A DNA stretch of 64,000 nucleotides, from positions 310,001-374,000 of the forward strand of contig NZ_FQLF01000001.1 in the NCBI RefSeq assembly GCF_900120175.1, written 5' to 3'. Source of the DNA: Oceanicoccus sp. KOV_DT_Chl (lineage in GTDB: Bacteria; Pseudomonadota; Gammaproteobacteria; Pseudomonadales; Dasaniaceae). Positions 35,082 through 54,294 of this stretch are shown here, in pieces (position 1 is the first letter of the stretch; every line of letters starts with the position of its first letter). A program made the position numbers and the translations under genes. The notes beneath the pieces were generated by a model. That model was not told the origin of the DNA and made no database searches. It worked only from the letters and a program-made list of their open reading frames with translations.

Positions 35082-36531
35082 ATGAATAAGAGCTGGACAT
35101 CCTATAAAACCGATTCGTTTTTTGACGAACTTATTACCCCCGCCGGAAAATCCCGCCAAACAGCCAAGCAGCTGATCAAATTACTCCAACATCTTTCCAT
35201 TGATGAAATGCGTACGCGGCGTGCTGCAGCAGAATTGGCGATTAAGGAAATGGGCGTGTCTTTCACTATTTATAGTGAAGAGGGAAATATCGATAGAGCG
35301 TGGCCGTTCGATATCATCCCCGGGTTATTCCGTCGCGTGAATGGGATAAAGTGCGACTGGGGCTGATGCAGCGTAGCCGCGCGCTGAATTGCTTCATCGA
35401 TGATATTTATAACAAACAAAAAATTATTGCCGACGGCATTATTCCGGCGGACATTGTTCTCGACTCAGGAAACTATAAAGCACAATGTCAGGGCATATCG
35501 CCACGATATGGGGTGTGGGCGCATATTTGTGGCTCCGATTTGGTGCGTGATAAAGATGGCAAGTTTTACGTGCTGGAAGATAATCTGCGAGTTCCGTCCG
35601 GCGTGTCCTATATGTTGGAAAATCGAGAAATCACCAAACGGGTGCTGCCCGAGTTATTTGAAAACTACAGTATTTTACCGGTCGATGATTATCCCTCGCG
35701 TTTGCACAGTACGTTAGCTTCGCTATCCCCGCGCAATCAAAAGCGCCCCTGCATCGTGGTGTTGACGCCAGGTATTTATAACTCCGCCTATTTTGAACAC
35801 GCGTTTTTAGCGCAAGGTATGGGCGCGGAATTAGTCGAAGGCAGTGATTTGTTCGTTGATGACGACGACTGTGTCTATATGCGAACCGTAGATGGACCCA
35901 TCAGGGTGGATGTGGTTTATCGTCGCATTGATGATGATTTCCTTGACCCGGAAGTTTTTAACAAGGATTCGGCCTTGGGTGTGCCCGGCATAATGCGGGC
36001 ATGGAAAGCGGGTAATGTAGCCATTGCTAATGCGCCGGGAGCAGGGGTAGCGGATGATAAAGTCGTTTACGCTTATGTTAACGAGATGATTCGTTATTAC
36101 TTAAACGAAAAACCATTGATGGCTAGTGTTAAAACCTATTTGTGCATGAATGAAAAAGATCGCGAATATGTGTTGGCTAATCTGGATAAGTTAGTAGTAA
36201 AACCCGCCAATGAATCCGGGGCTATGGTTTAATGGTCGGCCCCACGCCAGCCAGCGCTGCTAAACGGGCGGAGTTTGCCAAATTAATTGCAGCTAACCCG
36301 CGTAATTATATTGCGCAACCGACCTTGGCGCTGTCGACAGCCCCTACCTATATCGACGATAAGGTAGAACCCCGCCATTTGGATTTACGACCGTTTATTT
36401 TGCAGGGCAAAGAGAGCTGGGTAACCCCTGGCGGTTTGACCCGGGTGGCGCTGGTGAAGGGTTCCCTGGTGGTCAATTCCTCGCAAGGGGGTGGCAGTAA
36501 AGATACCTGGATTGTGGAGAATAACAAATGA
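35082..36531 (+). CDS. Circularly permuted ATP-grasp protein, module A (two apparent frameshifts)
   Basis: About 483 residues once two lost bases are restored: one C at 35318-35321 (giving [16 protein letters not shown]) and one G at 36218-36221 (giving NESGGYGLMVG). The intact paralogue at 51912-53420 shows the same residues across both sites. Visible blocks: [90 protein letters not shown] and [14 protein letters not shown]. The family (DUF404/DUF407, type 2 circularly permuted ATP-grasp) is predicted to ligate amino groups to carboxylates in peptide-like products. It overlaps the alpha-E gene by four bases. A plausible site (GGAG) lies 14 bases before ATG 35082. Confidence 0.88.
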
Positions 36532-37466
36532 CCATGCTTTCGCGAGTGGCCGAGCGGCTTTATTGGATGGCGCGTTATTTAGAACGTGCAGAAGATATGG
36601 CCCGATTAACCAATGCCTATACCCATATGGCAATGGATATACCCAAAGGCGCAGAACCTGGGTGGGATGTGTTAGTACGGATCATGGACGCGGAAGCGGC
36701 TTATACCGATCACTACCGCGTGTACAACGAACAGAACGTGTTGAAGTTTATCATTGCCGATGAGGACAATGTCGGTGGTATTTACAATGCCATTCGAGCG
36801 GTGCGCGAAAATGTCCGCACTACTCGTGATGTATTGCCAGAAGAGGCGTGGGAATATGTCAATGAGCTGTATATCTATGCGCAGGAGCATGCTGATAAAT
36901 CCATTGGCCGCCGCAATCGCTATAAATTTCTAGAAACGGTAATCACTAGTTGCCAAATGATCAGTGGCATGTTGTCATCCACGCTCAGTCGCGACCATGC
37001 CTACCGTTTTATTAAGCTTGGAAGGCTGTTGGAGCGTGCCGATATGACCACCCGGATAATTGATGTGGGTGCAGCGGCGTTATTGGGTGAAGATCGCCAC
37101 CATACAACCGTAGATCCGTTAATTTGGGCCAGTTTATTAAAGTCCTTATCAGCAATGGGGGCCTACCGTCGTATGATTGGGCCGCAGGTTGAAGCTAATG
37201 ATGTGGTTGACTTTGTCTTGCGCAACGAAACCTTACCCCGGTCGGTGAAGTTTTGTCTTAATGGCATGCGTGAAGAGTTGATACCGCTCACAAATCATAA
37301 GCCGGTAGTAAAGTTATTGGATAGAGCGCGTCGAAAGCAATCCGGATTTGATCCGTATAATTCGACGCGTGAACAGTTACATACTTTTGTGGATGAGTTT
37401 CAAGCAAGTTTGTTTAATATTAATAGAACCATTGATAGTACGTGGTTCCAGCAGGATCAGACATGA
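36528..37466 (+). CDS. Alpha-E domain protein, module A
   Basis: 312 residues, all-helical alpha-E (DUF403) family. It starts [25 protein letters not shown] (from residue 3), the family signature, with [42 protein letters not shown] and [12 protein letters not shown] following. The biochemical role is unknown; in genome surveys it always accompanies the circularly permuted ATP-grasp, with a four-base overlap here (ATGA). Close paralogue at 50970-51911 and the C-terminal half of the fused protein at 41011. Confidence 0.92.
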
Positions 37467-37515
37467 ATATTATTGCTCCCCGAGTAATGGCTACCGTTAA
37501 AATCGGTAATACACT

Positions 37516-40500
37516 ATGACCATCCGTGTCGCGATTAATCATCGCACCTCGTATAAATTTGATCGCCCCGTTAACTTATCAGCACATACGGTGAGGTTGA
37601 GACCTGCACCGCATTCCCGCACACCTATTCACAGCTATAGCTTAAAAATAAAGCCGCAAGAACATTTTATTAATTGGCAGCAAGATGCATTTGGTAATTA
37701 TTTGGCGCGCTTGGTGTTTCCGGAAAAATGCACTGAATTCGAAGTGGATGTTGAAGTTATTGCCGATATGGTGACGATTAACCCTTTCGATTTTTTTGTG
37801 GAAGAGTACGCCGAGAAATATCCATTTAAATATCCTGCGCAGTTAAAAAAAGAATTACTACCGTATCTGGAAAAGTTAAAAGAAGGGAAAAAGTTCAAGA
37901 AGTTTTTAAACGGCTTTGATAAAAAACCGCGCGCGATTAATGACTTTTTAGTCGAGCTTAACCAATATGTAGAAAAAGAAATTGAGTATCTGGTGCGATT
38001 GGAACCGGGTATTCAAACACCGGAAGAAACATTAAAACTGGCTAAAGGTTCCTGTCGGGATTCGGCCTGGTTGCTGGTGCAGTTATTACGTCACTTGGGA
38101 TTGGCGGCGCGTTTTGCCTCCGGATATCTGGTGCAACTTAAGCCTGATGAAAAATCGCTGGATGGCCCTTCGGGGGCGGCCGAGGATTTCACCGACTTGC
38201 ATGCCTGGTGCGAAGTGTTTTTACCGGGCGCCGGTTGGGTTGGTTTAGATCCCACCTCGGGATTGTTCGCCAGTGAAGGTCATATCCCGTTAGCGTGTAC
38301 TCCGAGCCCAGTGTCGGCAGCACCTATCGTCGGTGCTACCGATAAGTGCGAAGTTGAATTCGATTTTAGCAATACCGTTACCCGTGTGCTGGAAGATCCG
38401 CGAGTCACCAAACCGTACAGTGAAGACCAGTGGCAACATATTTTGGCGCTGGGCAAAGCGGTGGATGTGGAGTTTGAACAAAATGATGTGCGCTTAACCA
38501 TGGGTGGTGAGCCGACCTTTGTGTCCATCGATGATATGGAGTCGGAGCAGTGGAACACCGATGCGCTCGGGGAAGACAAGCTCAGTCTGGCAAAAACGTT
38601 ATTGCTGCGGTTGCGTGATCGCTACGCACCTAATGGTTTGCTGCATTACGGTCAGGGCAAATGGTATCCCGGTGAAGAAGTCCCGCGTTGGGCGCTGGGA
38701 GTATTCTGGCGGAAAGATGGTGAGCCGCTCTGGAACAACACAGAATTGCTGGCGCGCGTCGATAAAAAGTATGACTACGACGTCAACTACGCCAGCCGTT
38801 TTGGTAAGCATTTGTGTGGGTTGTTGGGTATACCCAAAGCCTGCTGTCAGCCAGCTTATGAAGATGCTTTATATTATTTAATGCAGGAGCAAAACCTGCC
38901 AAAAAATCTCGATATTTTGGCGCATAAGCTCAGCAGCAATCTTGATCGCCGCCGTTTGGCCAAACTTATTGAACGAGGTATGGATGTACCGACAGGGGTG
39001 GTGCTACCACTCAGTCGCAGCACAGGCTGGCCGTTAGAGGAAGAACAAAAAAGCTGGCACAGTAGTTTGTGGCCGATGAGGCGTGAGCGCATTACGCTAA
39101 TTCCCGGTGATTCACCCATGGGCTTGCGTTTACCGTTGGGGAATTTACCGGAGTTTGCTAATAAAGCAGATCAGTTTACGCCTCAGCGTGATCCCTTCGA
39201 GCCACGCAAAGATTTACCGGCGCGTAGCGAACTAGCATTTGCAGACGATAAAACGGCTGATGAAGAGGCCCCGGTTGCGGAGGATCTCGAGGCCGTAGTA
39301 CGAACCGCTATGTGTGTCGAGGTGCGGGACGGGCGCTTGCATATCTTTATGCCACCACTGGAGTATCTGGAAGATTATGTGGCACTGGTTGCCGCCATTG
39401 AAGCCACTGCTGCCAGTTTGAAAGTAGCAGTGATCATTGAGGGTTATGAACCGCCGCGCGATCCGCGTATGCAAAAATTATTGGTCACCCCTGACCCGGG
39501 TGTTATCGAAGTGAATGTGCATCCCTCTAACAACTGGGATGAGTTGGTCGCTACCACCACGTCGCTCTATGAAGAGGCGCGCTTATCACGTTTGTCCACC
39601 GAGAAATTTATGTTGGATGGTCGTCATACAGGTACTGGAGGCGGGAATCATATTACGCTGGGCGGAACCACTCCTGCGGATAGCCCGATGCTGCGCCGTC
39701 CGGATATTTTGCGCAGTTTTATTACTTTTTGGCAGCACCATCCCAGCTTGTCGTATTTGTTTTCCGGCATGTTTGTTGGGCCGACCAGCCAGGCGCCCCG
39801 GGTTGATGAGGGCCGCGATGAAATGCTCTATGAGCTGGAAGTGGCGTTCTCGCAAATGTCAGGCACGGAAGAGGTCGCTCAACCCTGGATAGTCGATCGC
39901 TTGTTGCGTAATTTGTTAATCGATGTCACGGGTAATACCCATCGCGCAGAGTTTTGTATCGATAAATTGTATTCCCCTTCCGGCAGTGCCGGGCGTTTGG
40001 GTATTTTGGAGTTTCGTGGTTTTGAAATGCCACCGCACTCGCGTATGGCGCTGGTGCAGGCGCTGTTGATTCGCAGCTTAGTGGCACGTTTTTGGAAAAC
40101 GCCATACCACAAACCACTGACGCGCTGGGGCACAGAGTTACACGACCGGTTTATGTTGCCGCATTTTTTGTGGCAAGACATGAAATACGTGGTGAACGAT
40201 TTGCAGGAGCATGGTTATCCCTTCCAGTTGGAGTGGTTAGCTCCATTTGAAGAGTTTCGTTTCCCGCATTACGGTCGCGTACAGATTGATGATATTGAAC
40301 TGGAATTGCGCTGGGCAGTTGAGCCCTGGCATGTGTTGGGTGAAGAGACCAGCAGCTTTGGCACGTCGCGGTATGTCGACTCTTCGGTTGAGCGATTGCA
40401 GATCAAGGCCACGGGGTTGACCGAAGGGCGTTATGTGCTGGCTTGTAATGGTCGTCGTGTGCCCCTGCGTAGCACCGGCCAGCATGGCGAGTACGTGGGT

Positions 40501-40875
40501 GGGGTGCGTTATCGTGCCTGGCAACCGCCGTCGGCATTGCACCCGTTGATCGGTGTGCACGTACCGCTGAATTTTGATTTGATTGATACCTGGAATGGTC
40601 GCTCCATTGGCGGTTGTAGTTACCACGTCAGCCACCCGGGTGGTCGCAGCTACGATAGCTTCCCGGTTAACTCCTATGAGGCGGAATCCCGACGAATCAA
40701 TCGCTTTACTACTGTGAACCACACGCAGGGGCCATTTATACCTATGCCTGAGGTGAGCGCGTTACGGCAGTTTTACCCTGATCAGCATGTGCCCAGACCC
40801 ATGCAGCCACCACCTGAAGAGGCTGCTGGCGAATATCCTTATATATTGGATATGCGTAGTTCCGGGCGGTCATAA
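37516..40875 (+). CDS. Transglutaminase-like protein with DUF2126 extension
   Basis: 1119 residues. N-terminal BTLCP-type region (1-130, VAINHRTSYKFDRPV...LRPAPHSRTPIHSY), then a transglutaminase core with C180 in GSCRDSAWLL, H229 in TDLHAWCEV and D245 in GLDPTSG, a complete Cys-His-Asp triad. From about residue 310 follows DUF2126: DVRLTMGGEPTFVSIDDME, LHYGQGKWYPGEEVPRWALG, DGRHTGTGGGNHITLGG, LEFRGFEMPPHSRMALVQ and GGVRYRAWQPPSALHPLIG. The N-terminal 280 residues are paralogous to the 286-residue protein at 53434-54294, which lacks DUF2126. No signal peptide, so cytoplasmic. Peptide cleavage or cross-linking on the product of the ATP-grasp partner is the current prediction for the family. 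Confidence 0.93.
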   Translation: MTIRVAINHRTSYKFDRPVNLSAHTVRLRPAPHSRTPIHSYSLKIKPQEHFINWQQDAFGNYLARLVFPEKCTEFEVDVEVIADMVTINPFDFFVEEYAEKYPFKYPAQLKKELLPYLEKLKEGKKFKKFLNGFDKKPRAINDFLVELNQYVEKEIEYLVRLEPGIQTPEETLKLAKGSCRDSAWLLVQLLRHLGLAARFASGYLVQLKPDEKSLDGPSGAAEDFTDLHAWCEVFLPGAGWVGLDPTSGLFASEGHIPLACTPSPVSAAPIVGATDKCEVEFDFSNTVTRVLEDPRVTKPYSEDQWQHILALGKAVDVEFEQNDVRLTMGGEPTFVSIDDMESEQWNTDALGEDKLSLAKTLLLRLRDRYAPNGLLHYGQGKWYPGEEVPRWALGVFWRKDGEPLWNNTELLARVDKKYDYDVNYASRFGKHLCGLLGIPKACCQPAYEDALYYLMQEQNLPKNLDILAHKLSSNLDRRRLAKLIERGMDVPTGVVLPLSRSTGWPLEEEQKSWHSSLWPMRRERITLIPGDSPMGLRLPLGNLPEFANKADQFTPQRDPFEPRKDLPARSELAFADDKTADEEAPVAEDLEAVVRTAMCVEVRDGRLHIFMPPLEYLEDYVALVAAIEATAASLKVAVIIEGYEPPRDPRMQKLLVTPDPGVIEVNVHPSNNWDELVATTTSLYEEARLSRLSTEKFMLDGRHTGTGGGNHITLGGTTPADSPMLRRPDILRSFITFWQHHPSLSYLFSGMFVGPTSQAPRVDEGRDEMLYELEVAFSQMSGTEEVAQPWIVDRLLRNLLIDVTGNTHRAEFCIDKLYSPSGSAGRLGILEFRGFEMPPHSRMALVQALLIRSLVARFWKTPYHKPLTRWGTELHDRFMLPHFLWQDMKYVVNDLQEHGYPFQLEWLAPFEEFRFPHYGRVQIDDIELELRWAVEPWHVLGEETSSFGTSRYVDSSVERLQIKATGLTEGRYVLACNGRRVPLRSTGQHGEYVGGVRYRAWQPPSALHPLIGVHVPLNFDLIDTWNGRSIGGCSYHVSHPGGRSYDSFPVNSYEAESRRINRFTTVNHTQGPFIPMPEVSALRQFYPDQHVPRPMQPPPEEAAGEYPYILDMRSSGRS

Positions 40876-40933
40876 TGAGAGTGACAGACTAAAATCTGGA
40901 GCGTCATGTTTAGTGATCTGCGGCGTAAGCGTA

Positions 40934-40939
40934 TATAAT
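40934..40939 (+). promoter_or_regulatory. Possible -10 element ahead of the fused ATP-grasp/alpha-E gene
   Basis: TATAAT within a GC-rich inverted repeat (GCGGCG upstream, CGCCGC downstream), 77 bases before GTG 41011. No good -35 is seen, so an internal operon promoter is only suggested. Confidence 0.3.
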
Positions 40940-41010
40940 GCGCCGCGATCACGGTGACTATTGGCGGAGCCCAAGCTGTGCTCGTCAACAATCTCATACA
41001 GGTAGAATAC

Positions 41011-43624
41011 GTGACCGACCCTCTGCAACAATCCCAGAGTCAACTCCAAAGTCAGGACCCGGCCCAGAGTCAGGTTGAAACGGATGCCGAGCGGGTAAAA
41101 CCGGCAGGGGCGCTCGACTATAACGCTATTAGTGGCTCGTTAGATGATACTCAGGCCGCTGATGGCAGTGTCAAAACGGAGTGGGGCTATCTGCTCAATA
41201 GCCTGAAGGATTTAGGGCCTAGCGTATTAAGTGAGCGAGAGCAGAAAGCGCGCAGAATTTTACGCGATGATGGTGCTACCTATAATATCTATGCCGAAAA
41301 CGGCAGCCCAGCTCCAGTTGGGAGCTCGATCCAGTGCCTTATATTATTGGCAGTGAAGATTGGGGGAGGATTGAAGCGGGGCTGTTAGAGCGTTCAGAGC
41401 TGTTCAATTTGCTGGTACAGGACCTTTATGGGCCGCGCAACTTGCTGAGGAAGGGGCTATCCCGCCAGAAGCATTATTTAGTCACGGTGGTTTCTTGCGC
41501 GCTTGCCAGGGTATTGAATTGCCCGGTGAACACCAGCTGATACTGCATGCCGTTGATATGGTACGTCAGCGTGATGGCACTATGTGCGTGTTATCGGATC
41601 GTACTCAGGCACCCAGTGGCTCGGGCTATGTATTAGAAAACCGGACAGTTATGTCGCGGGTATTCCCCAGTTTGTATCGCGATAGCCATGTGCATCGATT
41701 GGCCAGTTTTTATCAGCGTTTACGGCTTAAGCTGATTTCATTATCACCGTCTGATGATGAGCCTTTAGTTGTAGTGCTTACACCCGGTGGCCAAAACGAA
41801 ACCTATTTTGAGCATGCCTATCTAGCGAACTATCTCGGTTTTCCATTAGTACAAAGTGGCGATTTGATCGTTCGTAATGGCTTTGTCTGGATGAAAAGCC
41901 TCGATGGGTTAAAGCGGGTGGATGTTATTTTACGGCGGGTTGATGATGTTTTTTGTGACCCTGTTGAATTGCGCAGTGACTCCCGTCTAGGTGTGCCAGG
42001 TTTATTAGAGGTGGCGCGAAGTGGGCGCATAGTGATTGCCAATCCACTGGGCTCGGGAGTATTGGAAAACCCCATATTGCTGAAATGTTTACCTGAAATT
42101 AGCAAGTGTTTATTAGGGCGTGAGTTACGTCTGCCGTCGGTTAAAACCTATTGGTGTGGCGACGAAGAGGATTTGCGTTTTGTCGTGGCTAATATTCGTC
42201 AGTTGATTATTAAACCTGCCTATCGTGGCAGTGGCATCAGCAGCGTTTGGGGCGGTGATTTAACAACCGAACAGCTAAATAAATTACTCGCGACTATTCA
42301 CAGCAATCGTTATCAATATGTGGCGCAGGAGCGTCTGGAAAAATCGTATATTCCGACATTCTCGGCGGGAAAATTAGAGCCTCGTCCCACATTGTTACGC
42401 ACTTTTTCAGTAGCTACTGATAGCTCCTATATGATTTTGCCGGGTGGCCTTACCCGCGTGGGTGACGATACCACAAGCCGGGTAATTAGCATGCAATCCG
42501 GTAGCCCTAGCAAGGATACCTGGGTGACCGCGACGGAGCCGCAGCGCACGGCTGATAATGATCCCGCATTAGACACGCATTCTGCGCTACGTAGTTCCAG
42601 TCTGGTGAGTTTACCCAGTCGTGTGGTTGAGAACCTTTATTGGATGGGGCGTTATGCTGAGCGGGCAGAAGCGTCCTTACGTTTGTTACGTACCGTGTTT
42701 ATGTTGTTGAATGGTGAAGAGCCCATTGGCCCCAATGCGCGGCGTATTTTATTGCAAACAGTGAGTCAGGTAACCGCAACATTGCCCGGCTTTATGAAAG
42801 CCAGTGCGGAGTTGCTGGCAGACCCGGAAGATGAATTACTGCAAATAATCAAAGATGGCAATCGGCTCGGTAGTATTAAATCAACATTGAATTCAATGCT
42901 CGCCAGCGCCGATGAATCCAAAGAGTTATTGTCCACTGATACTATCCGCGTTATCAATGATATACGTGATGCCTTGGGGGATTTGGATCTTGCGTTAACA
43001 GACAGTACCTCGGCGCCGGAAGAAGCACTTGATCCATTGGTAACCGTGTTGGCGGCATTGTCGGGGCTAATGCAAGAGAGCATGATTCGCAGTGTGGGGT
43101 GGCGATTTATGGAGCTTGGTAAGCGCATCGAGCGCTCCTTGCAGGCGGTACAAACTATCCGCAGTTTATTGACGCCGATAACCGGTGAAGGTGACCAGTC
43201 AACCCCGCTGACCGCACTGTTGATTACTATGGATGTATTGATCACTTATCGTCGTCGTAGTCGTGAGCGTCGCGGCATTGGATTAGGTCTTGAATTAGTG
43301 CTGTTGGATGAAAATAATCCGCGCTCAGTTATTTTTCAGCTGCAACGATTACAGCAGCACCTCAGTGTACTCCCCAAAGTAAATACGGTTTCGCAAGAGC
43401 TGGAAGAAGAGGAGCGAGCGTTAATGGAGGCGATTACCAGTTTGAAATTATCGCGCTTGCCGGACTTACTCGAAGACAATGGCGCACAGCGCGAAGCATT
43501 GAATAATTTATTGGTGCAATTGGATAGATTATTAAAAGATTTCAATGGTTTTATTAGTGATAAGCATTTTGATCATCGCACCGATACCCAGCAACTGGTG
43601 ACGACATTTTGGGGAGCACGTTAA
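41011..43624 (+). CDS. Fused circularly permuted ATP-grasp/alpha-E protein, module B (two apparent frameshifts)
   Basis: About 870 residues if one base is restored near 41317-41322 (giving PVWELDPVPYIIGSEDWG) and one near 41445-41450 (giving NLL.EGAIPPEALFSHGG). The ATP-grasp half (to about residue 510) is diverged: CVLSDRTQAPSGSGYVLENR, PGGQNETYFEHAYLA, RRVDDVFCDPVELRSDS, LIIKPAYRGSGIS and SPSKDTWV. The alpha-E half begins LPSRVVENLYWMGRYAERAEASLRLL. The same fusion occurs in proteobacterial genomes beside a small transglutaminase, as here: the stop overlaps the next ATG by one base. The GTG at 41011 (MTDPLQQSQSQLQSQ) follows CAGGTAG; a longer frame opens at 40954. The N-terminal 90 residues are Gln/Ser-rich and probably disordered. 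Confidence 0.87.
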
Positions 43625-44496
43625 TGCGTTTTCGGATTCGCCATATCACCCACTATAAATATGCACAGCAAGTCAGCCGTTGTTATAACCTGGCGAATGT
43701 GGTGCCACGGGATACCGATAGTCAGCGGGCGATTAAAAGTCGTATTACGGTTTCACCACAGGCGGCAACTACCCATAAACGCACGGATTATTTTGGCAAT
43801 ATTGCCTACCATTTTGAAATTCAGCGGCCTCACACTGAGCTCACTATTACTGCCGAAACCGATATTGACATCGACAGCCGTGATAGCGAATTGGATTTGG
43901 GGGCATCGTACGGTGAGTCGTTAGCGTATTTACGGGATACTCTCACCCCTGAAACCATTGCAGCGCGTGAATTTTTATTAAATTCTCAAATGATTGAACC
44001 CAGTCGTGCGATGGCCGAGTATGCCAAGCCTTCGTTTAACCTTAATCGTTCACTTAAATCCTGTGTCAGTGAATTAACCACTCGCATTTTTAATGATTTT
44101 GAGTACGATCCCGGTTTTTCAACTATCGCCACACCGTTGGCGGAGGTGTTAGAGCATAAGCGCGGCGTCTGTCAGGATTTTGCTCACTTACAAATTGGTT
44201 GCTTGCGCTCAATGGGCATTCCTGCCAAATATGTCTCGGGTTATATTGAAACCCTGCCCAAGCCCGGTGAAGTTAAGCTGGTAGGAGCTGATGCAACGCA
44301 CGCCTGGGTGGCGTATTTTTGTCCTAAAGAAGGTTGGGTAGAATTTGATCCAACCAATAATACCGCCGCGGGTAGCCAGCACATAGTGACAGCATTTGGT
44401 CGGGATTATGGTGACGTTACGCCAATCAAAGGGGTTATTTTTGGAGGCGGAAAAAGCCCGGTTCTGAGTGTTTCAGTTGATGTGCGGCGTCTATAA
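43624..44496 (+). CDS. Transglutaminase family protein, module B
   Basis: 291 residues from ATG 43624 (TAATG overlap with the fused gene). Domains: N-terminal BTLCP region (MRFRIRHITHYKYAQQVSR to about 90) and the transglutaminase core with C183 in RGVCQDFAHL, H226 in ATHAWVAYF and D242 in EFDPTNN, so the catalytic triad is intact. The ending HIVTAFGRDYGDVTPIKG is usual for the group. Cytoplasmic, no signal peptide. Last gene of the 35-44.5 kb operon. Confidence 0.93.
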   Translation: MRFRIRHITHYKYAQQVSRCYNLANVVPRDTDSQRAIKSRITVSPQAATTHKRTDYFGNIAYHFEIQRPHTELTITAETDIDIDSRDSELDLGASYGESLAYLRDTLTPETIAAREFLLNSQMIEPSRAMAEYAKPSFNLNRSLKSCVSELTTRIFNDFEYDPGFSTIATPLAEVLEHKRGVCQDFAHLQIGCLRSMGIPAKYVSGYIETLPKPGEVKLVGADATHAWVAYFCPKEGWVEFDPTNNTAAGSQHIVTAFGRDYGDVTPIKGVIFGGGKSPVLSVSVDVRRL

Positions 44497-44569
44497 TAAT
44501 GTTACCGTTATGCTTAGAGCTAAAATTTCCAATGCCAGTAATAAAGCTTACATAAAAGGATGTCTGTAT

Positions 44570-45187
44570 ATGTATAACAAATCTCTAATGGGAATAGCGC
44601 TGTTGTTATCCCTGCCAATAAATGCCACCATTTTTGTAACTGACCAACTTTACGATGATGCAGATGTAGTCATTTCATTCGACGAATTTGAGTTGTCTGA
44701 AGGGGAAGTTATCACTGATCAATATGTAGATTATGGCGTGACCTTTTCTAACGGTGGCTGTCAACGTCAGAACCAAGTAGTAAATTTCTTGTGCGCAAGT
44801 CAGTCTAGCCCACAAGACTTGATTACTGTTAATTTTGATAAGGCTGTTAGTCGGGCTGGCTTTAGGGTGACTTACATGTCCTCGGCTGGTGTTCAAATCA
44901 CTACTGGTCTGGATGGTGTTGTTCAGGATGTATTTACCGTGAAATGTAGCGGCGATGAAGAGGACTTTTCAAATTGCTTTGGGTCAGTTGATTGGGTTAT
45001 TGAGGTTGATGGGAATATCGACGCGATCAATTTTTTGACAGCTGATAATGTTGTTGCATTTGACGACTTTCAGATGAGTTATGCAGCTCCAGTGCCGGAA
45101 GAAGTTCCGGAGTCAACGACAGTGTTGTTACTGCTAGCGGGTATGTTAGGGCTGGGAGCAACGCGAATGAGGAGGAAGGGACTTTAG
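44570..45187 (+). CDS. PEP-CTERM-type sorting domain protein
   Basis: 205 residues from ATG 44570 (MYNKSLMGIALLLSLPINA, signal peptide), with AAAAGGA ten bases ahead; the longer frame from 44468 overlaps the transglutaminase gene and is rejected. The C-terminus is VPESTTVLLLLAGMLGLGA then TRMRRKGL, a PEP-CTERM-like tail with VPES in place of VPEP. The body holds FDEFELSEGEVITDQYVDYGV and VAFDDFQMSY blocks common in PEP-CTERM proteins, plus Cys pairs. Exported and processed by an exosortase not found in this window. Confidence 0.8.
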   Translation: MYNKSLMGIALLLSLPINATIFVTDQLYDDADVVISFDEFELSEGEVITDQYVDYGVTFSNGGCQRQNQVVNFLCASQSSPQDLITVNFDKAVSRAGFRVTYMSSAGVQITTGLDGVVQDVFTVKCSGDEEDFSNCFGSVDWVIEVDGNIDAINFLTADNVVAFDDFQMSYAAPVPEEVPESTTVLLLLAGMLGLGATRMRRKGL

Positions 45188-46109: not shown

Positions 46110-46240
46110 TAAGTTGTTCGCTAATCAAAGTCAGTTGATGGCCGCAGATTTTAGCATAGGCTTAGTTTTTTAAAATGAATATCCAGTAAGAATCGATTGG
46201 TCGGGGGCAAGCTCGCTGTTTTTAGTTGGAAGTGATGAGC

Positions 46241-46714: not shown

Positions 46715-46940
46715 GTCGGTTGCTGCCTCCTGTAAGTGGGTATATTGCAACTAAATTATAGCGAGGGTAAATGACATTGCTGTGGCAGCATTCAAATAAT
46801 AGTTAAATTTTTTGAGTAGCTGTTTGCAGATGATAATCATACGTGATTGGGTGTAGAGCGACCACCGTAGAACTACTTATAATTGACATCAATAGATAGG
46901 TATTAAGCACAGTACTTAGGCTCATTGAAAGCCCGAACAG

Positions 46941-47333
46941 CTAGTGAATAGCCGTCGCGGCTTGGCGTTCAATCATCAGGATTTCCTGACTGATATTAAA
47001 TACCGCATCTGCTGCTTCTTCATCTTCACAGCCTTCGTGCTCAAAGCGCACCCCGAATCTAAAGCCGCTGTCAGTAATCGTGCGATTACAGATCAGGCCG
47101 TTGACCTCTGCCAGAGTGGAATCATCCGTACGAATAATCAGCGATAGAATATCGCCGATGGCAAAGTTGTGAGTAGACTCAATGCCAATACCAAAGCGAT
47201 TAAAATCGACGGTACTGATATAACCCATCTCCCATTCACTGTCTCTATTGCGCAGCGATTTGATCAATACTTTCAAATGATTGGCGGGGTAGCGGGTGTG
47301 ATGGCGGCGCTCATTGACGGCATTCATTATCAT
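46941..47333 (-). CDS. PilZ-domain protein
   Basis: 130 residues, a single PilZ domain. The RxxxR cyclic di-GMP motif is RRHHTRYP, followed by DFNRFGIGIES in place of the (D/N)xSxxG loop: the Ser position is Asn-Arg, so ligand binding may be altered. FRFGVRFEHEG closes the barrel. Cytoplasmic effector for cyclic di-GMP; it could respond to the diguanylate cyclase at 647. Confidence 0.78.
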   Translation of the reverse strand: MIMNAVNERRHHTRYPANHLKVLIKSLRNRDSEWEMGYISTVDFNRFGIGIESTHNFAIGDILSLIIRTDDSTLAEVNGLICNRTITDSGFRFGVRFEHEGCEDEEAADAVFNISQEILMIERQAATAIH

Positions 47334-47643
47334 GGTCCGTTTTACTGCTCAGAAGTAGCACTGTACCACAGTTGCTGGGGGCCTAAAATCAATCTGTACA
47401 GAATGTTGTTGGGAGGGTAGGGCGCGCTATTATGAGGTGTTCGAGGGTCAAGACTTGACCTAACTTTACATAGCAGCGCTTGAATCGTTATGGCGGTGGT
47501 CGTACCATAATCGGCATCATTTATTGGGCTAAATTTCCATAATAAAAATTGGTTTAGCGCAGTAGATAGTCAGGGCTTTTGGTTATCAATATTGCAACTC
47601 TATCTACAGCTTTAATTATAATGTCATAACGAGGTATCACCCC
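47334..47643. other. Intergenic region with a palindrome
   Basis: 310 bases with no supported gene. Contains the 15-base palindrome listed separately and the leader of the next gene. Confidence 0.55.
47446..47460. promoter_or_regulatory. Perfect palindrome GGTCAAG-A-CTTGACC
   Basis: A 7-1-7 inverted repeat about 185 bases upstream of the gene at 47644, in the size range of an operator for a dimeric regulator. No cognate regulator is adjacent. Confidence 0.4.
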
Positions 47644-48453
47644 ATGTCAGAAACCATTGAAAAGTATGTTGCAGAAGACTCTCTAGCCTATCGCCTGTGC
47701 TGGGACTCTATTAATCATATCGTAGAGCGCTTCAAAATGAAGGAGGTCACAGGTGAGGATGGTGGTGCTTATCACCCTATTATGTTTGCCCGCGGTGGCA
47801 AAGAAGTAGGTGAACAGCGTGTCTGGATGGGGCAGGACGGTGTATTTAAATTGGTTTATGTTGGTCTGGTGGCAAACCCTCCCGGTGTTGATTCACATAT
47901 GATGTTTGCGTTTACTGATAAAGATAACCCAGCGCCTCACTACACGGTAGATTCGGTTCACTTGGCGCATATGGGGCACTATGCCTATCACTGTGAAGTG
48001 ATGCCTGGTGTCGATATCGGTGCCAACCTGAATTATGTTAATCATGTGTATGAGCCACTGTCAGAGTATAACAAAGGCTTGTATGGCACCGAGGGCTTTG
48101 TTAAGTCTGAGGAGCTTGGCTTACGTCAGTGGGCCTTTATGTCGCCTTGGATGTTGGCTGGTCGTGCACCAGATGCAGAAAGCTTTGATAAGCTGTTTCA
48201 TTATATTGGTAAGTATCGTGAGCATTGGGCGCAGTTGATTGAAAACGGTATCCCACAAGATTGTTTGGAAGGCGTGGATATGTCCAAAATTGCTGATCGT
48301 GACTATCGCAATCGCTGCGCCGCCTTTAACCGTGATGTTGATCCGGTATATAACCAGTTGTTACCGCTAATGGGGCAGGAAGAAGGTGATCGTCAGATTC
48401 AGGTCCTGCGTTGTGTAGATGGTATCGAGCAAGATGGTGATTATCAGTTTTAA
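47644..48453 (+). CDS. Uncharacterised 269-residue protein
   Basis: Not recognised. Soluble, no signal peptide, rich in aromatic and acidic residues. Notable segments: FARGGKEVGEQRVWMGQDGVFK, HYTVDSVHLAHMGHYAYHCE with four His, and RDYRNRCAAFNRDVDPVYNQLLPLMG. The clustered His and conserved-looking Tyr, Trp and Arg residues suggest an enzyme or heme/metal-binding protein, but this is a guess. Good AACGAGGT site before ATG 47644 and a strong terminator after, so it is a single-gene unit. Confidence 0.75.
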   Translation: MSETIEKYVAEDSLAYRLCWDSINHIVERFKMKEVTGEDGGAYHPIMFARGGKEVGEQRVWMGQDGVFKLVYVGLVANPPGVDSHMMFAFTDKDNPAPHYTVDSVHLAHMGHYAYHCEVMPGVDIGANLNYVNHVYEPLSEYNKGLYGTEGFVKSEELGLRQWAFMSPWMLAGRAPDAESFDKLFHYIGKYREHWAQLIENGIPQDCLEGVDMSKIADRDYRNRCAAFNRDVDPVYNQLLPLMGQEEGDRQIQVLRCVDGIEQDGDYQF

Positions 48454-48474
48454 TTAAGTCCGATGTTCGGCTAA

Positions 48475-48502
48475 AGCCAGAGCTATTTAGCTCTGGCTTT
48501 TT
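48475..48502 (+). terminator. Rho-independent terminator
   Basis: AGCCAGAGC and GCTCTGGCT form a perfect 9-bp stem with a TATTTA loop, followed by TTTTT. It ends the gene at 47644. Confidence 0.9.
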
Positions 48503-48573
48503 TATTGCTGGCTTTTTTGCTGTTGAACTTTACAATTTGTGCTTACTTTAGCTAAAGCGTTGATAGCACACCC

Positions 48574-49155
48574 ATGAGTAGCGAAAACGATAAAAATTCT
48601 CCAGTAGCCATAGGCCCCTGGTGGCGAAAATCCTCTGAACTGATTTATGACAATCCCTGGATTTCACTGCGCCATGAAGAAGTAATCACACCCGCTGGCA
48701 GTGACGGCATTTATGGCAAAATTCATTTTAAGAATAGGGCGTTGGGCATTATTCCGTTAGATGAGAATTTGCAGACGGTGTTAGTTGGTCAGTACCGTTA
48801 TGCACTGGATGAATACAGCTGGGAGATTCCGATGGGTGGCGGCTCTTTCGATCAGTCGCCCTTAAGTGCTGCGCAGCGTGAGTTGCAAGAAGAGACAGGC
48901 CTTCATGGTGGTGACTGGCAGCAATTATTTAAACTGCATACGTCCAACTCCGTCACCGATGAGGAAGGCTATGTATTTTTAGCCCGCAATCTACAACCGG
49001 GTCAGCAAGCGTTGGAAGATACTGAGGGCGACTTGGTGTTAAAACAGCTGCCTTTGAAGGACGCTGTGGCGATGGTCACCCGCGGCGAAATTACCGATCT
49101 TATTTCAATTGCCGGTTTATTGGCGGTGGAAAAATTATTAAAGAGTGGTGATTAG
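48574..49155 (+). CDS. Nudix hydrolase (ADP-ribose pyrophosphatase-like)
   Basis: 193 residues. The Nudix box is clear in its second half (RELQEETGL, with the metal-binding Glu pair) but the first Glu of GX5E is Gln (Q94). Upstream VLVGQYRYALDEYSWEIPMGGG is the usual ADP-ribose/NDP-sugar hydrolase strand. It probably splits nucleotide diphosphate linkages in the cytoplasm. Five bases separate it from the next gene, so the two are likely co-transcribed. Confidence 0.86.
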   Translation: MSSENDKNSPVAIGPWWRKSSELIYDNPWISLRHEEVITPAGSDGIYGKIHFKNRALGIIPLDENLQTVLVGQYRYALDEYSWEIPMGGGSFDQSPLSAAQRELQEETGLHGGDWQQLFKLHTSNSVTDEEGYVFLARNLQPGQQALEDTEGDLVLKQLPLKDAVAMVTRGEITDLISIAGLLAVEKLLKSGD

Positions 49156-49160
49156 TTTTC

Positions 49161-49898
49161 ATGGCTGCCCTTAATCTGAACGACAATGAAGTGCATATCT
49201 GGCGTACCGATATCCAATCAGTGCCGCCAGTACTATTGCCTGAATTTTTATCGATCATGTCCTTGGAGGAGCGCGAACGTAATCAGCGTTTCAAATTTGA
49301 GCAGGGGCGTTTTGATCACGCGTTAACTCGCGCATTGGTGCGTACGGTTTTATCCCGGTACTGCCAGCGCCAGCCTGAGGAATGGCGTTTTACCCAAGGT
49401 GAGCATGGCAAACCGGAGTTAGTGGATGCGCCAGTGGCGCTGGAATTTAACCTCAGTCACAGCTGTCGTTTTATTGTTTGTGCGGTCAGCAAACAGATGA
49501 AAATTGGAGTGGATGTTGAGCATACTGAGAGAAAAAATAGTCTGTCCTCGATAGCTGACCGGTTTTTTTCTGAGCAGGAAGTCAAAGATTTATTCGCATT
49601 GCCCGCGGCGGAACAAAGTAGCCGTTTTTTTGATTACTGGACGCTAAAAGAAGCTTATATGAAGGCGCGTGGAGAGGGGATTTCTCTGGGGCTGGGGAAT
49701 TTCGGTTTTAGTTTTAACAATGAGGAGATAGCCATCGCCATGGCACCCATACTGAAGGATAACCCCGCCGATTGGTATTTTGAATTATCCAGCCCCAGTC
49801 CTGATCAGCGTATGGCACTGGCGGTTAAAATCGCTGGCTTACCACAGCCTCTGGATATCCAGCGGTTTGACGTTATCCCGCTATTAACAGCAGGTTAA
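49161..49898 (+). CDS. 4'-phosphopantetheinyl transferase (Sfp type)
   Basis: 245 residues. Moves the phosphopantetheine arm of CoA to a Ser of carrier proteins. Key blocks: FNLSHSCRFIVCAV, IGVDVEH (metal Asp and Glu), FFSEQEV and WTLKEAYMKARGEGISLGL. Sfp-type length and the GVDVE motif mark the broad-range class used for polyketide, peptide or fatty acid synthases rather than AcpS. No carrier-protein synthase is in the window. Likely in operon with the Nudix gene. Confidence 0.9.
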   Translation: MAALNLNDNEVHIWRTDIQSVPPVLLPEFLSIMSLEERERNQRFKFEQGRFDHALTRALVRTVLSRYCQRQPEEWRFTQGEHGKPELVDAPVALEFNLSHSCRFIVCAVSKQMKIGVDVEHTERKNSLSSIADRFFSEQEVKDLFALPAAEQSSRFFDYWTLKEAYMKARGEGISLGLGNFGFSFNNEEIAIAMAPILKDNPADWYFELSSPSPDQRMALAVKIAGLPQPLDIQRFDVIPLLTAG

Positions 49899-49917
49899 CG
49901 GTGTTACTCCGGCGAAT

Positions 49918-50718
49918 TTAAATGCCTTTTAAGAACGGTTGTATTGTTTGCAGAACACCCTTAAAACATTTTGGGTTGCCGGCAACGATGTTGCCTGATT
50001 CCATATAGCCGTTGCCGCCCCGAAAGTCTGAAACCAAGCCGCCGGATTCGCGAATTAATAATACCCCCGCAGCGATATCCCATTGGTTCAGGCTAATTTC
50101 CCAAAACGCATCCAGTCGGCCGGCAGCAACATACGCTAAATCCAGTGAAGCGGCGCCAGCGCGACGAATACCGGCGGTTTGTTTGGCGACGGCGGCCATG
50201 CTTTCGGTGTAGGCCGGGATATGATCTTCACTACGGGATTTATAAGGGATACCAGTGCCAATTAATGCGCCGTCGAGAGATTTACGGTTGCTGACACGCA
50301 TTCTGCGGCCATTAAGCTGGGCACCTTTGCCACGGCTGGCGGTAAATTCTTCCCGCCGTATGGGGTCGAGAATCACAGCATGTTCCAGTTGCCCTTTGTA
50401 TAGGCAAGCGATTGAAATAGCGAAGTGGGGGATACCGCGAATAAAGTTCGTGGTGCCATCAATCGGATCGATCACCCACTGGTAATCACTGTCGGCATTG
50501 CCTTGACGGCCACCTTCTTCGCCCAGAAAGCCATGATCAGGGTGGGCTTTGGAGATATGGTAAATCACTTCCTTTTCTGCAGCCTGATCGACTTCAGTGA
50601 CAAAGTCGTTAGCACTTTTTTCCTTTACCTCCAGGGTATCCAGCTGATCAGTGGCGCGGGCAACAATTTCGCCAGCCTGGCGCGCAGCACGGAGGGCAAT
50701 ATTTAGCATGGGTTCCAT
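49918..50718 (-). CDS. suhB: Inositol-1-monophosphatase SuhB
   Basis: 266 residues. Metal-site motifs GEEGG, DPIDGTTNFIRGIPHFAIS and WDIAAGVLLIRESGG are intact. The enzyme dephosphorylates inositol monophosphate and, in gammaproteobacteria, also binds RNA polymerase complexes during rRNA antitermination. In related genomes suhB stands divergent from trmJ; here trmJ is 7 kb away, with the third ATP-grasp module and the MgtE operon lying between. Confidence 0.93.
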   Translation of the reverse strand: MEPMLNIALRAARQAGEIVARATDQLDTLEVKEKSANDFVTEVDQAAEKEVIYHISKAHPDHGFLGEEGGRQGNADSDYQWVIDPIDGTTNFIRGIPHFAISIACLYKGQLEHAVILDPIRREEFTASRGKGAQLNGRRMRVSNRKSLDGALIGTGIPYKSRSEDHIPAYTESMAAVAKQTAGIRRAGAASLDLAYVAAGRLDAFWEISLNQWDIAAGVLLIRESGGLVSDFRGGNGYMESGNIVAGNPKCFKGVLQTIQPFLKGI

Positions 50719-50969
50719 TGGGTAGACCTTATCGATTGAGCTGGATTTAGTGGCGGCGGATTATAGCAGCAACGGGATAAATAGTGCTAACGCTGAGGTT
50801 GGCTTTCCCTTGAGTGGATAGTGCTCATTTGAAGTATATCTAGAACCTTGGTAGCGCAAAGGGCTACTAAGGCTCTGTCATTAAAGGGCTGCACACTTGA
50901 TTTGGCTTGATCCATTGGTCATGAGACACATGACAGCGCCGCTGCCGTTCTGCTGAGCCAAGTCTCAAA

Positions 50970-51911
50970 TCAAGTTTTATGCAGTGTTTCAGGGTGTAAC
51001 CAGGTGGAATAAATCACCCCGTGAATGCTACCTAATTCGGCTTGCAGGTCATCAATATACTGATGCAGTTTGATGCCTTCCAGTGCGCTTAAATCGACGG
51101 TGCGCAGGCGTTTTGAGATGGTTTTTATCACACCTAGGGTTTTGTCGTGGTGATCCAAACGCTGCACACAGGATTCAAGTTCCGCTAAATTAAATGCGGT
51201 TGAACGCGGGAATACCTCACTTTTTAGTAAGAAATCCAGTACCGCTTCAGGTTTCACTTTTTGTGAAGTATCGAGCCGGTACATTTGATAAGCACTGAGC
51301 GAACGCAGAATACTGATCCATAACACATTGCGATAGGGTTCAATTTCTTCGCGGGCGCCGCTGAGTGATGCCGAGCCTGCATCAACGATACGTGTAGTCA
51401 TATCTGCTTGTTCAAGATTGCTACCCAGACGGATAAATTGGTAGGCATCGCCATGATTCATTGTGGTGGCTAACAGCCCGGTAATTTGCTGGCAGGACAT
51501 AATGATATCGTTGAGTACTTTGTGTCGGCTACTGCGGGATAAATACATACCGGAACGTTTCGATACACTTAAATACAGTGCGTTGACGCACTCCCAGGTT
51601 TCGCTGGGTAAGACTTCGCGGGTGGTTCGCATATTTTCGCGCGCACTGGCGATTGTGCTAATCACTGAACCTTGATGGCTTCGATCACTGAAAATAAAGG
51701 AGATAATATTTTTTTCAGTGGCCTCCTTTTGCGTTGCTTTAAATTCTTCATGGATACCCAGCATATCGACCAGCAAACTCCAGTCTGGTTGAATGTTTTT
51801 GGGCAGATCAAGAATCAGTTGATGGCGCACTAGCATTAAGCGGGCAATATTTTCTGTGCGTTCAACGTAGCGGGCAAACCAATAAACACGTTCTGCAGTT
51901 TGGGATAACAT
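50970..51911 (-). CDS. Alpha-E domain protein, module C
   Basis: 313 residues. MLSQTAERVYWFARYVERTENIARL, NMRTTREVLPSETWECVNALY, AYQFIRLGSNLEQADMTTRI and FPRSTAFNLAEL line up with the alpha-E protein at 36528, so it is a paralogue. Last gene of a three-gene minus-strand operon; its ATG immediately follows the TAA of the ATP-grasp gene. Function unknown, always tied to that partner. Confidence 0.92.
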   Translation of the reverse strand: MLSQTAERVYWFARYVERTENIARLMLVRHQLILDLPKNIQPDWSLLVDMLGIHEEFKATQKEATEKNIISFIFSDRSHQGSVISTIASARENMRTTREVLPSETWECVNALYLSVSKRSGMYLSRSSRHKVLNDIIMSCQQITGLLATTMNHGDAYQFIRLGSNLEQADMTTRIVDAGSASLSGAREEIEPYRNVLWISILRSLSAYQMYRLDTSQKVKPEAVLDFLLKSEVFPRSTAFNLAELESCVQRLDHHDKTLGVIKTISKRLRTVDLSALEGIKLHQYIDDLQAELGSIHGVIYSTWLHPETLHKT

Positions 51912-53420
51912 TTATTTGCCCTCCGTTTCGACGATCCAGGTGTCTTTACTACCACCGCCCTGGGATGAGTTAACCACCAGTGAACCTTTGCGCAATGCCA
52001 CCCGTGTTAGTCCGCCGGGCGTTACATAGGATGAGTCGCCTTGCAAAATAAAGGGGCGTAAATCCAGATGTCGCGGTTCAATTTTTCCATTGCAGAGGGT
52101 GGGGGCTGTGCTTAATTTTAAGGCGGGCTGTGCCATATAGTTCCTGGGATTTTTCTTAATCAGCGCGGCAAATTGCTCGCGTTCTTTTTTGGTTGAAGCG
52201 GGACCAACTAGCATGCCATAACCGCCCGATTCGTTAGCGGGTTTAACCACCATAGTTTCGAGGTTGTCCAGCACATGTTCGCGCTCTTTGTCGTTGACAC
52301 ATAAATAGGAAGGCACATTCGGTAAGATCGGCTCTTCGCCCAAATAGTATTTAATAATAGCAGGTACATAGGTGTAGATAATTTTGTCGTCGGCGACACC
52401 CGCACCAGGGGCGTTGGCGAGTGCAACATTGCCTTTTGCCCAGGCACGAAATAAACCGGGAGTGCCGACACAGGAATCCGGGTTGAACACTTCAGGGTCG
52501 AGAAATTCGTCATTAATACGACGATAAATAACATCAACACGTTCTAGCCCTTTAATTGTTTTCATATAGACGCAATCGTCTTTGCCCACAGTCAAGTTGC
52601 TGCCACTGACCAGTTCTGCACCCATACGCTGGGCTAAATAGGCGTGTTCAAAATAGGCTGAGTTATAAATCCCCGGGGTAAGCACTGCAATTTCAGGATT
52701 TTCAACTTTATTGGGGCTAAGTGAGGTGAGCATATCGAAAAGTTGTGAGGGATAATCATCAACCGGCAGGATGCTGTGCTTATTAAAGAGTTGTGGCAGT
52801 ACCCGCTTGGTCACCGCGCGGTTTTCAAGCATATAGGATACGCCCGATGGTACTCGTAGGTTATCCTCCAGGACATAGACGGTGCCATTATCATCACGCA
52901 CCAGATCCGAGCCGCAAATATTGGCCCAAACCCCGTGTCGCGGTTTGATTCCCATACACGCTTTTAAAAAATCTTTGGAGCCGAGAATAAGTTCTGAGGG
53001 AACGATTTTGTCCTTAAAGATTTTTTGCTCATTGTAGACGTCATTGATAAACATATTCAGGGCGGTAACCCGTTGCACCAATCCCTTTTCGACATTTACC
53101 CACTCTGACTTTGGAATGATTCGAGGAATAATATCCATTGGCCAGGCGCGATCAATATTTTCGCCTTCGCTGTAAATAGTAAAACTGATCCCCATTTCCT
53201 GAATAACGAGATCGGTGGCTTTTTGTCTGGCGACTAGATTCGATTCCGAAATCTTTTTCACATAAGAAAAAATACCTTTACCTGCGGGACGAGGTTTGTT
53301 CTTGGCAGCGATTAGCTCATCGTAAAAAATACCCGGGTCATAATTGGACCAATCAAATGATGGCCGTTTGGTTTTGGCGGTTTTATTCGCGGTAGGCTGT
53401 TTGGTTTTTGGAGACGCCAT
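51912..53420 (-). CDS. Circularly permuted ATP-grasp protein, module C
   Basis: 502 residues, intact. Same block order as module [118 protein letters not shown] and [14 protein letters not shown]. The first 30 residues are Lys/Pro/Thr-rich and probably flexible (a short basic tail absent from module A). It serves as the reference that exposes the two lost bases in module A. Predicted ATP-dependent amide ligase of unknown substrate. Confidence 0.93.
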   Translation of the reverse strand: MASPKTKQPTANKTAKTKRPSFDWSNYDPGIFYDELIAAKNKPRPAGKGIFSYVKKISESNLVARQKATDLVIQEMGISFTIYSEGENIDRAWPMDIIPRIIPKSEWVNVEKGLVQRVTALNMFINDVYNEQKIFKDKIVPSELILGSKDFLKACMGIKPRHGVWANICGSDLVRDDNGTVYVLEDNLRVPSGVSYMLENRAVTKRVLPQLFNKHSILPVDDYPSQLFDMLTSLSPNKVENPEIAVLTPGIYNSAYFEHAYLAQRMGAELVSGSNLTVGKDDCVYMKTIKGLERVDVIYRRINDEFLDPEVFNPDSCVGTPGLFRAWAKGNVALANAPGAGVADDKIIYTYVPAIIKYYLGEEPILPNVPSYLCVNDKEREHVLDNLETMVVKPANESGGYGMLVGPASTKKEREQFAALIKKNPRNYMAQPALKLSTAPTLCNGKIEPRHLDLRPFILQGDSSYVTPGGLTRVALRKGSLVVNSSQGGGSKDTWIVETEGK

Positions 53421-53433
53421 GTTTTTTTATCCG

Positions 53434-54294
53434 TTAGCTGAGTCGAGTGACAGAGTTATTAAAAAATAATTGAGTTGCTCCGGGGCCTTTATTGCCACTA
53501 ACCGGGGCAGCGGATGCTGGCTCACGCGTACAGCATAATGGAATATAGCCTTCACCAGTTAATTGCGCTGAAGTTGGATCAATGCCAATCCAGCCTGCAC
53601 CCGGGATAAATACTTCGGTCCAGGCATGTAAATCAGTACTGTCTTGAGAAAAATTATTGTCGGCAGCGGCTAGCTGAATAGAGTAACCGGAGACGAATCG
53701 CGCTGCTACACCCAAGTGCCGAAAGCTCTGCACCAATAGCCAGGCTGAATCCCGGCAGGAGCCGCTGCCAATACTCAGGCTGGTTTCACAACTCTGTACG
53801 CCTTGCTCCAATCGTTCAACATAGCTGATTCTGTTCAGTAATGCTTGGCTGACGTATAGCAAAAAATCGACAATGCCAATATTACTGGTGCTTAAACTGT
53901 TCAGGAACTGCTGCATTTCGGCGCCAGCTGCTTGCACGTTTAAATAAGGTGCCAAGTCCTGAGCCATCTCAGCGGAGTAAACCAGTGGCCACAGGCTGGC
54001 ATCGTCATCGATAAAGAAGTCAAAAGGGTTAATGGTTTGAATGTTAGCAATGATATCCACTTCGATGGAGAATTCACTAATCAGTTGGGAAAACATTACT
54101 CTAAGAATATGGTTGTTGAAGGCATCCTGCTGCCAGTATTGCAGGTGTTCAGCGGGGCTAATATTAAGATGGTAGTGCTGGATTTCAGTTCGGCAATGCG
54201 GTGCGGGGCGCAATCGAATAAGTTGCGGAAACAGCAGTACGGGGTCGCTGTATCGGTAATCAGTGCTGTGCTTGAGTGCTACGCGGATGGACAT
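53434..54294 (-). CDS. Transglutaminase family protein, module C
   Basis: 286 residues. N-terminal BTLCP part (SIRVALKHSTDYRYSDPV, LIRLRPAPHCRTEIQHYH) and a core with C180 in GSGSCRDSAWLL, H223 in TDLHAWTEVF and D239 in GIDPTSAQ. It parallels the first 280 residues of the 1119-residue protein at 37516 but ends where DUF2126 would begin. First gene of the minus-strand operon; 13 bases ahead of the ATP-grasp gene. A truncation after duplication, or an ancestral short form, would explain it. Confidence 0.92.
   Translation of the reverse strand: MSIRVALKHSTDYRYSDPVLLFPQLIRLRPAPHCRTEIQHYHLNISPAEHLQYWQQDAFNNHILRVMFSQLISEFSIEVDIIANIQTINPFDFFIDDDASLWPLVYSAEMAQDLAPYLNVQAAGAEMQQFLNSLSTSNIGIVDFLLYVSQALLNRISYVERLEQGVQSCETSLSIGSGSCRDSAWLLVQSFRHLGVAARFVSGYSIQLAAADNNFSQDSTDLHAWTEVFIPGAGWIGIDPTSAQLTGEGYIPLCCTREPASAAPVSGNKGPGATQLFFNNSVTRLS

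Follow-up and report, generated by a model that had tools for sequence, protein, structure and literature searches.

The window analysed here, a stretch of 64,000 nucleotides on contig C1 of the genome of Oceanicoccus sp. KOV_DT_Chl (G000; NZ_FQLF01000001.1, positions 310,001 to 374,000), contains three sets of genes for ATP-grasp, alpha-E and transglutaminase-like (TG) proteins, termed A, B and C (Table 1). The initial annotation had described them as three parallel, diversified versions of one module. The families themselves are confirmed, but the count of three modules is wrong. On the evidence of gene order and co-occurrence, A and B are one system, a conserved gene cluster forming a five-gene operon around a DUF2126 protein; C is a separate system, and a recent duplication linking it to A is rejected (p 2e-6). 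The phylogenies indicate that the A+B operon is a hybrid, the first two genes of which have been exchanged for a pair of the type found in operons of the proteasome-like protein Anbu. The explanation that we consider the more probable joins a nitrogen-starvation A+B operon with this replaced leading pair to a separately acquired set C, whose cognate Anbu gene would lie on another contig. This suggests that two puzzling bacterial systems trade parts.

Table 1. Features of the window discussed in the text, with positions counted from its first base.
Feature	Position	Strand	Remarks
Sigma-54-type (-24/-12) promoter-like site	35027..35042	+	One mismatch to consensus; 39 bases before the ATG of ATP-grasp A
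ATP-grasp A, circularly permuted	35082..36531	+	Pfam match; split over three frames
Alpha-E A	36528..37466	+	PF04168, 276 bits; with ATP-grasp A an Anbu-type pair (clade 100/100)
TG-like domain fused to DUF2126 amidoligase domain	37516..40875	+	1119 aa; triad C180/H229/D245; ordinary DUF2126-operon lineage
Fused ATP-grasp-alpha-E B	40954..43624	+	N-terminal part over three frames; open 41495-43624
TG-like B	43624..44496	+	Open reading frame listed from 43609; PF08379 and PF01841; triad
Segment missing at the same place in four same-genus genomes examined	50719..57689		Holds module C, MS-channel-like gene, two MgtE-like genes
Alpha-E C	50970..51911	-	PF04168, 269 bits
ATP-grasp C	51912..53420	-	Intact, 502 aa; PF14403, 547 bits; PDB relative 3n6x, E 1.3e-151
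TG-like C	53434..54294	-	TG-DUF2126 lineage without DUF2126 domain; triad C180/H223/D239
Mechanosensitive (MS)-channel-like gene	54583..55341	+	PF05552; inside inserted segment
Two MgtE-like genes	55338..57432	+	PF03448 in both, PF01769 in the second; inside inserted segment

Gene content and clustering of A and B

Pfam placed the expected domains (CP_ATPgrasp_1/2, Alpha-E, Bact_transglu_N plus Transglut_core, and DUF2126 with 1331 bits) where the initial annotation had put them, and the Cys-His-Asp triad was seen in all three TG proteins. The residue numbers given earlier for TG B were counted from an ATG five codons inside the listed frame. The profile matches and the PDB relative predict circularly permuted ATP-grasp ligases; the predicted alpha-E structure was all helical, with a poor confidence score (pLDDT 57). 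NCBIfam had no names for the seven window proteins given to it. At E 0.001 the whole genome contained three alpha-E and three Bact_transglu_N domains, every one of them in the window. Among 293 genomes of the order, 152 had any alpha-E, and only four, including this one, had three copies.

The operon runs on one strand in the order ATP-grasp, alpha-E, TG-DUF2126, fused ATP-grasp-alpha-E and TG. The A and B genes were clustered in 17 of the 19 DUF2126 loci that were fetched, with exactly this order in eight (G001, G012, G013, G025, G035, G111, G140, and G250) and with the stand-alone pair at the end of the same cluster or divergent from it in nine. In G003 the contig ended at the DUF2126 locus. 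Distant further TG proteins ended the cluster in G008 (L044:1641-2438), G009 (L045:13340-14263), and G012 (L041:15516-16721). A multi-step pathway, one of the two possibilities raised for the three modules, fits A+B, which mostly travel as one cluster.

The number of alpha-E copies separated the genomes of the order: 48 had one (three of them by weak matches), 100 had two and four had three. Of the 48 genomes with a single copy none had DUF2126, and of the 104 multi-copy genomes 88 did, whereas Anbu (E 1e-20) was found in 42 of the former and 19 of the latter; these counts were tallied by hand, and related genomes are not independent, which makes the Fisher values for them a rough guide. This distribution indicates that the order holds two largely alternative systems, Anbu with one alpha-E and DUF2126 with two. 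The exceptions were six single-copy genomes without Anbu, 16 multi-copy genomes without DUF2126 and two with Anbu and no alpha-E. Both systems occurred together in G000 and 18 other genomes of the sample.

Exchange of the leading pair

The pair tree was built from 48 concatenated ATP-grasp/alpha-E pairs; G159, the 49th, was left out, since the model used did not detect its alpha-E. The A pair fell inside a clade of ten rows supported at 100/100, comprising seven Anbu-linked loci with a zinc metallopeptidase and three DUF2126 operons, namely those of the window, of G012 (a genome of another family) and of G140, in which Anbu stood directly behind the operon. Placing the A pair and its G012 sister together with the ordinary DUF2126-operon pairs lowered the log-likelihood by 146 and was rejected by the approximately unbiased (AU) test (p 1.64e-63). 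The leading pair of the window operon falls outside the lineage of ordinary DUF2126 operons.

The TG-DUF2126 proteins of the window and G012 did belong to the ordinary lineage (100/99), and grouping these two with that of G140 was rejected (p 0.005). G140 showed a similar pair replacement on a different DUF2126 lineage. With the leading pairs in the Anbu-type clade and the large proteins in separate lineages, at least two exchanges are indicated, or one exchange followed by a later transfer. In a third genome, G034, the sole stand-alone pair belonged to an Anbu operon that directly adjoins the DUF2126 genes.

The operon was nearer to that of G012 than to that of G001, which belongs to the same genus. 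The TG-DUF2126 protein was 82% identical to that of G012; its TG part was 86% identical to G012 vs. 76% to G001, its DUF2126 part was 66% identical to G001, and alpha-E A was 78% identical to G012 vs. 38% to G001. A nearby inositol-monophosphatase gene showed the reverse trend, with 63% to G012 and 88% to G001. DNA similarity to G012 lay in three pieces from 35081 to 44483, which are the limits of the operon, and 19 neighbouring genes of the window tested against the fetched G012 and G001 operon loci gave no match at E 1e-10. The genes that flank the operon were scattered in G005. Horizontal transfer is the natural reading of a similarity that is confined to the operon and reversed in its neighbour; the hybrid operon shared with G012 has probably moved in this way.

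Module C, its insertion site and the Anbu genes

Module C holds ATP-grasp, alpha-E and TG together, and its pair was sister to a pair of G012 that stands beside Anbu (100/100). A search of the genome for Anbu, as the initial annotation had advised, found two genuine genes, Anbu-a on contig C2 and Anbu-b on contig C4 (E 9.4e-75 and 4.2e-62 to the solved Anbu 5loy), both unlinked to the modules; Anbu had no match in the window, so that there is none in the C operon. Anbu-a was sister to the C-linked Anbu of G012 (100/99). This points to paired descent of C with an unlinked Anbu gene, which would show that linkage is not needed. Both Anbu proteins keep Thr1, Asp17, and Lys32 and have nearly the same S1-pocket residues, the positions being taken from the available text of PMC5666114 and PMC6376114. 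The distinct substrates suggested earlier for the modules had thin evidence, which leaned against them at this Anbu step.

As a partner of the A pair, Anbu-b was considered and is not claimed here: FastTree placed it beside that clade (0.81), and the careful tree gave it no firm place. A glutaminase gene (L038:6726-7649) directly adjoins Anbu-b on the same strand. In G013 a second Anbu-like protein (L081:6285-6974), followed by a TG gene, has Arg at 52 and 55, much like the basic pocket of Anbu-2 in the available part of PMC5666114.

TG C shared 47% identity with the TG part at the N-terminus of the DUF2126 protein and grouped in FastTree with the TG-DUF2126 lineage, not with the small TG of usual Anbu operons. 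Among the matches listed for 390 genomes, the full-length stand-alone TG C type at 45% identity or more was found only in G000 and G012; three other short matches (G003, G022, and G264) stood at contig ends, and weaker stand-alone relatives had 25-39% identity. A search of genome contigs with TG C gave only two Dyadobacter loci, at 42-44%.

In G001, G002, G004, and G005 the genes on either side of the segment 50719-57689 (49918-50718 and 57690-58475) stood next to each other in divergent orientation, with 137-253 bp between them; in G003 and G006, the other two of the six same-genus genomes (G001-G006), the marker gene had no match. Since the flanking genes are adjacent in these four, module C, the MS-channel-like gene and the two MgtE-like genes were probably inserted in this lineage as a segment of ~7 kb. 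The MS-channel-like gene had no match at E 1e-10 in any of the six, and was 82% identical to a gene of G008. We regard C, with fair probability, as a separately acquired Anbu-type set.

Promoter sites and nitrogen

Sigma-54-type sites with at most one mismatch were found in 17 of 49 windows of 500 bases upstream of the leading ATP-grasp genes, against 0.67 hits expected at the rate of the same loci. A scan of the whole window with two mismatches gave 39 sites vs. 42 expected, so that the signal was seen only upstream of leading genes. A scan for NtrC sites gave 18 matches vs. 29 expected by chance and no signal.

The enrichment suggests agreement with published nitrogen control. In Burkholderia cenocepacia a cluster of DUF404/407, DUF403, TG and large-TG genes is described as NtrC-dependent in the available text of PMC5491218. 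In Pseudomonas putida PP_2685-PP_2688 (Anbu, TG, and ATP-grasp) was reported to be up under nitrogen limitation and called likely NtrB/NtrC-controlled in the accessible portions of PMC7801951 and PMC8050072. PP_2685 itself rose only 1.12-4.81 fold in the former; the latter gave log2 changes of 4.44 for PP_2685 and 3.99 for PP_2688, the ATP-grasp gene, on nitrate vs. ammonium.

Comparison with known systems

The gene families and both operon types are already known. The conserved order of the Anbu operon is given as ATP-grasp, alphaE, transglutaminase and Anbu in the available text of PMC6376114, after Iyer et al. (2009). Module C has the first three of these, and its pair and Anbu-a have well-supported sisters in one Anbu-linked locus of G012. 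It differs in that its Anbu lies on another contig, its TG is of the TG-DUF2126 lineage and the TG leads the operon. The A+B operon resembles I35_5080-5083, the B. cenocepacia cluster in the part of PMC5491218 available, in its ATP-grasp, alpha-E, TG and large TG protein; that the large protein carries DUF2126 is our inference. Nitrogen control has been reported for that cluster, and here the sigma-54-type site suggests it. Unlike the B. cenocepacia cluster, the operon of the window begins with an Anbu-type pair and includes the fused B gene. The window A pair also shares its clade with the seven loci in which Peptidase_Mx (PF15887) and a zinc ribbon (PF10005) face Anbu, whereas the genome of the window has no PF15887 match.

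The literature search, which covered few subscription papers, found no account of pair exchange between the two systems, of an Anbu set whose TG comes from this lineage and lacks DUF2126, or of a zinc metallopeptidase in the TG slot. It also found no established function for Anbu, alpha-E or DUF2126. The natural exchange of pairs between the two systems argues for a common reaction, and with nitrogen control the function becomes testable in P. putida, which has a known Anbu operon.

Proposed mechanism

From gene content, lineages, the pair replacement, the empty site and the promoter-site enrichment, we infer activity, substrate, product and expression as follows. Under nitrogen limitation, an ATP-grasp/alpha-E pair would join an amide to a small peptide or to the end of a protein via an acyl-phosphate. 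In the A+B system, the DUF2126 amidoligase and the fused second pair would extend or cap the product. The TG proteins may be mainly papain-like hydrolases that trim or release it. In Anbu-type sets Anbu would be the hydrolase, and the TG or a zinc enzyme and Anbu would break the amide. The pair would be a shared, exchangeable core, and its movement between the two systems suggests that they probably act on related substrates. A role in peptide synthesis or modification, as had been expected for these families, accords with the proposal of Iyer et al. (2009) as conveyed by citing papers. The ATP-grasp of the Yersinia Anbu operon releases phosphate from ATP, according to the text available from PMC6376114.

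The view of TG as a hydrolase draws on the slot between alpha-E and Anbu, surveyed in 24 fetched Anbu loci with an ATP-grasp in the same stretch; eight stretches with Anbu and without ATP-grasp (L037, L038, L071, L081, L082, L084, L085, and L091) were set aside. The slot held a TG in ten loci (L040, L043, L074, L076-L079, and L093-L095; in L093 alpha-E itself was not found) and a Peptidase_Mx/zinc-ribbon protein in ten others (L050, L060-L063, and L065-L069; Pfam named two of the ten). Three loci had neither (L046, L070, and L075), one had DUF2126-operon genes (L064), and TG and Peptidase_Mx never occurred together in the slot. A wider reading would be that both systems use one portable ATP-grasp/alpha-E core to make a nitrogen-starvation product of a single kind, that Anbu and DUF2126 are alternative ways of processing it, and that the TG hydrolase can be replaced by a zinc metallopeptidase in the same slot. 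The present genome would then run both systems, with two Anbu genes. Pair exchange seen on two DUF2126 lineages, with G034 as a third case of contact, is consistent with this reading, which together with its application to this genome we hold to be possible, though with the balance somewhat on the other side.

Alternative explanations

Several observations weigh against the explanation set out above, of a nitrogen-starvation operon with a replaced pair and a separately acquired C. The clustering has exceptions: G212 has its B genes ~110 kb away from the A genes (loci L089 and L090), and G032 has DUF2126 and the pairs on different contigs. The other 32 of the 49 leading genes, C among them, had no sigma-54-type site, and none stood before either Anbu gene, which leaves co-regulation of all parts unsupported. 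In the available part of PMC6376114, Anbu preparations lacked peptidase activity and did not interact specifically with the other proteins of the operon, and one structural study, as far as its text was accessible, favours protein degradation over peptide synthesis (PMC5666114). Against a simple exchange of TG and metallopeptidase, Peptidase_Mx was also next to the pair in L096 and in three DUF2126 loci with their TG genes retained (L047, L072, and L097), and the exchange follows deep clades and so represents few events. Anbu-b has a long branch, and the test did no more than fail to reject its pairing with the clade of the A pair (p 0.34). Finally, ATP-grasp A (35082-36531) and the N-terminal part of fused ATP-grasp B (~40954-41540) are each split over three reading frames in the assembly, the rest of B being open. 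The plus-strand operon of the initial annotation was confirmed in its genes and not in these two as single frames. They could be true recent pseudogenes, with module C, whose ATP-grasp is intact, now supplying the ligase for the DUF2126 operon; all four breaks fall within ATP-grasp coding sequence, and the remaining operon genes are free of them. Yet conservation is seen in the open pieces, which are 82, 91, and 79% identical to G012 (the first two being the ATP-grasp A pieces that flank its second break), and by our own reading the breaks lie at or near short single-base runs, the ATP-grasp regions being richer in G/C runs of exactly four (18 of the 42 in the operon). Intact homologues of both genes occur in relatives, the fused type being mostly open with ~835-895 aa, and hslV (L034) likewise runs over two frames in this assembly, a hint of small indel errors. 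For these reasons sequencing error is likelier than decay, and we regard the reading of pseudogenes served by module C as very unlikely.

That C is a recent duplicate of A within this genome might be suggested by the shared families and a distance of ~15 kb. However, the AU test rejected the two window pairs as sisters (p 2.07e-06), A and C each have their own sister in G012, and alpha-E A and C are only 37% identical, so this origin has practically no probability left. The same 37%, with 23% between A and B, would fit three diversified paralogous modules, each with its own substrate, as was first proposed; the three lineages persist, and A has a sigma-54-type site where C has none. Against three such modules, the A and B genes share one cluster in nearly all of the fetched DUF2126 loci and co-occur by count, the two Anbu proteins are nearly alike in their S1 pockets, and the A pair has taken the place of another pair within its operon, a substitution that suggests that the pairs are functionally interchangeable. 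We consider three modules quite unlikely. A ubiquitin-like tagging system, in which ATP-grasp/alpha-E tags proteins and Anbu (or TG) removes the tags or degrades the tagged proteins, releasing nitrogen, is proposed in the accessible text of PMC6376114; the preference for protein degradation in PMC5666114 agrees with it, and nitrogen control fits protein turnover. However, 69 of the 88 DUF2126-bearing genomes of the order had no Anbu match (E 1e-20), which indicates that Anbu is not needed for the DUF2126 system, and tagging appears rather unlikely.

Other genes of the window

At 59474-60721 on the minus strand, the window encodes a homologue of the MATCAP-family (PF08014) metallo-carboxypeptidases, a possible further partner. 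It is 54-56% identical to genes ~1-1.3 kb from Anbu in G053 (L082) and G187 (L071), and the MATCAP-like gene of G053 stands beside an M48 peptidase. A plus-strand frame at 44468-45187, which as listed overlaps the end of TG B, ends in a PEP-CTERM-like C-terminal tail and had no Pfam hit. At 61037-62469 on the plus strand, two adjacent frames match first the C-terminal and then the N-terminal part of a major facilitator superfamily transporter profile, that is, in swapped order.

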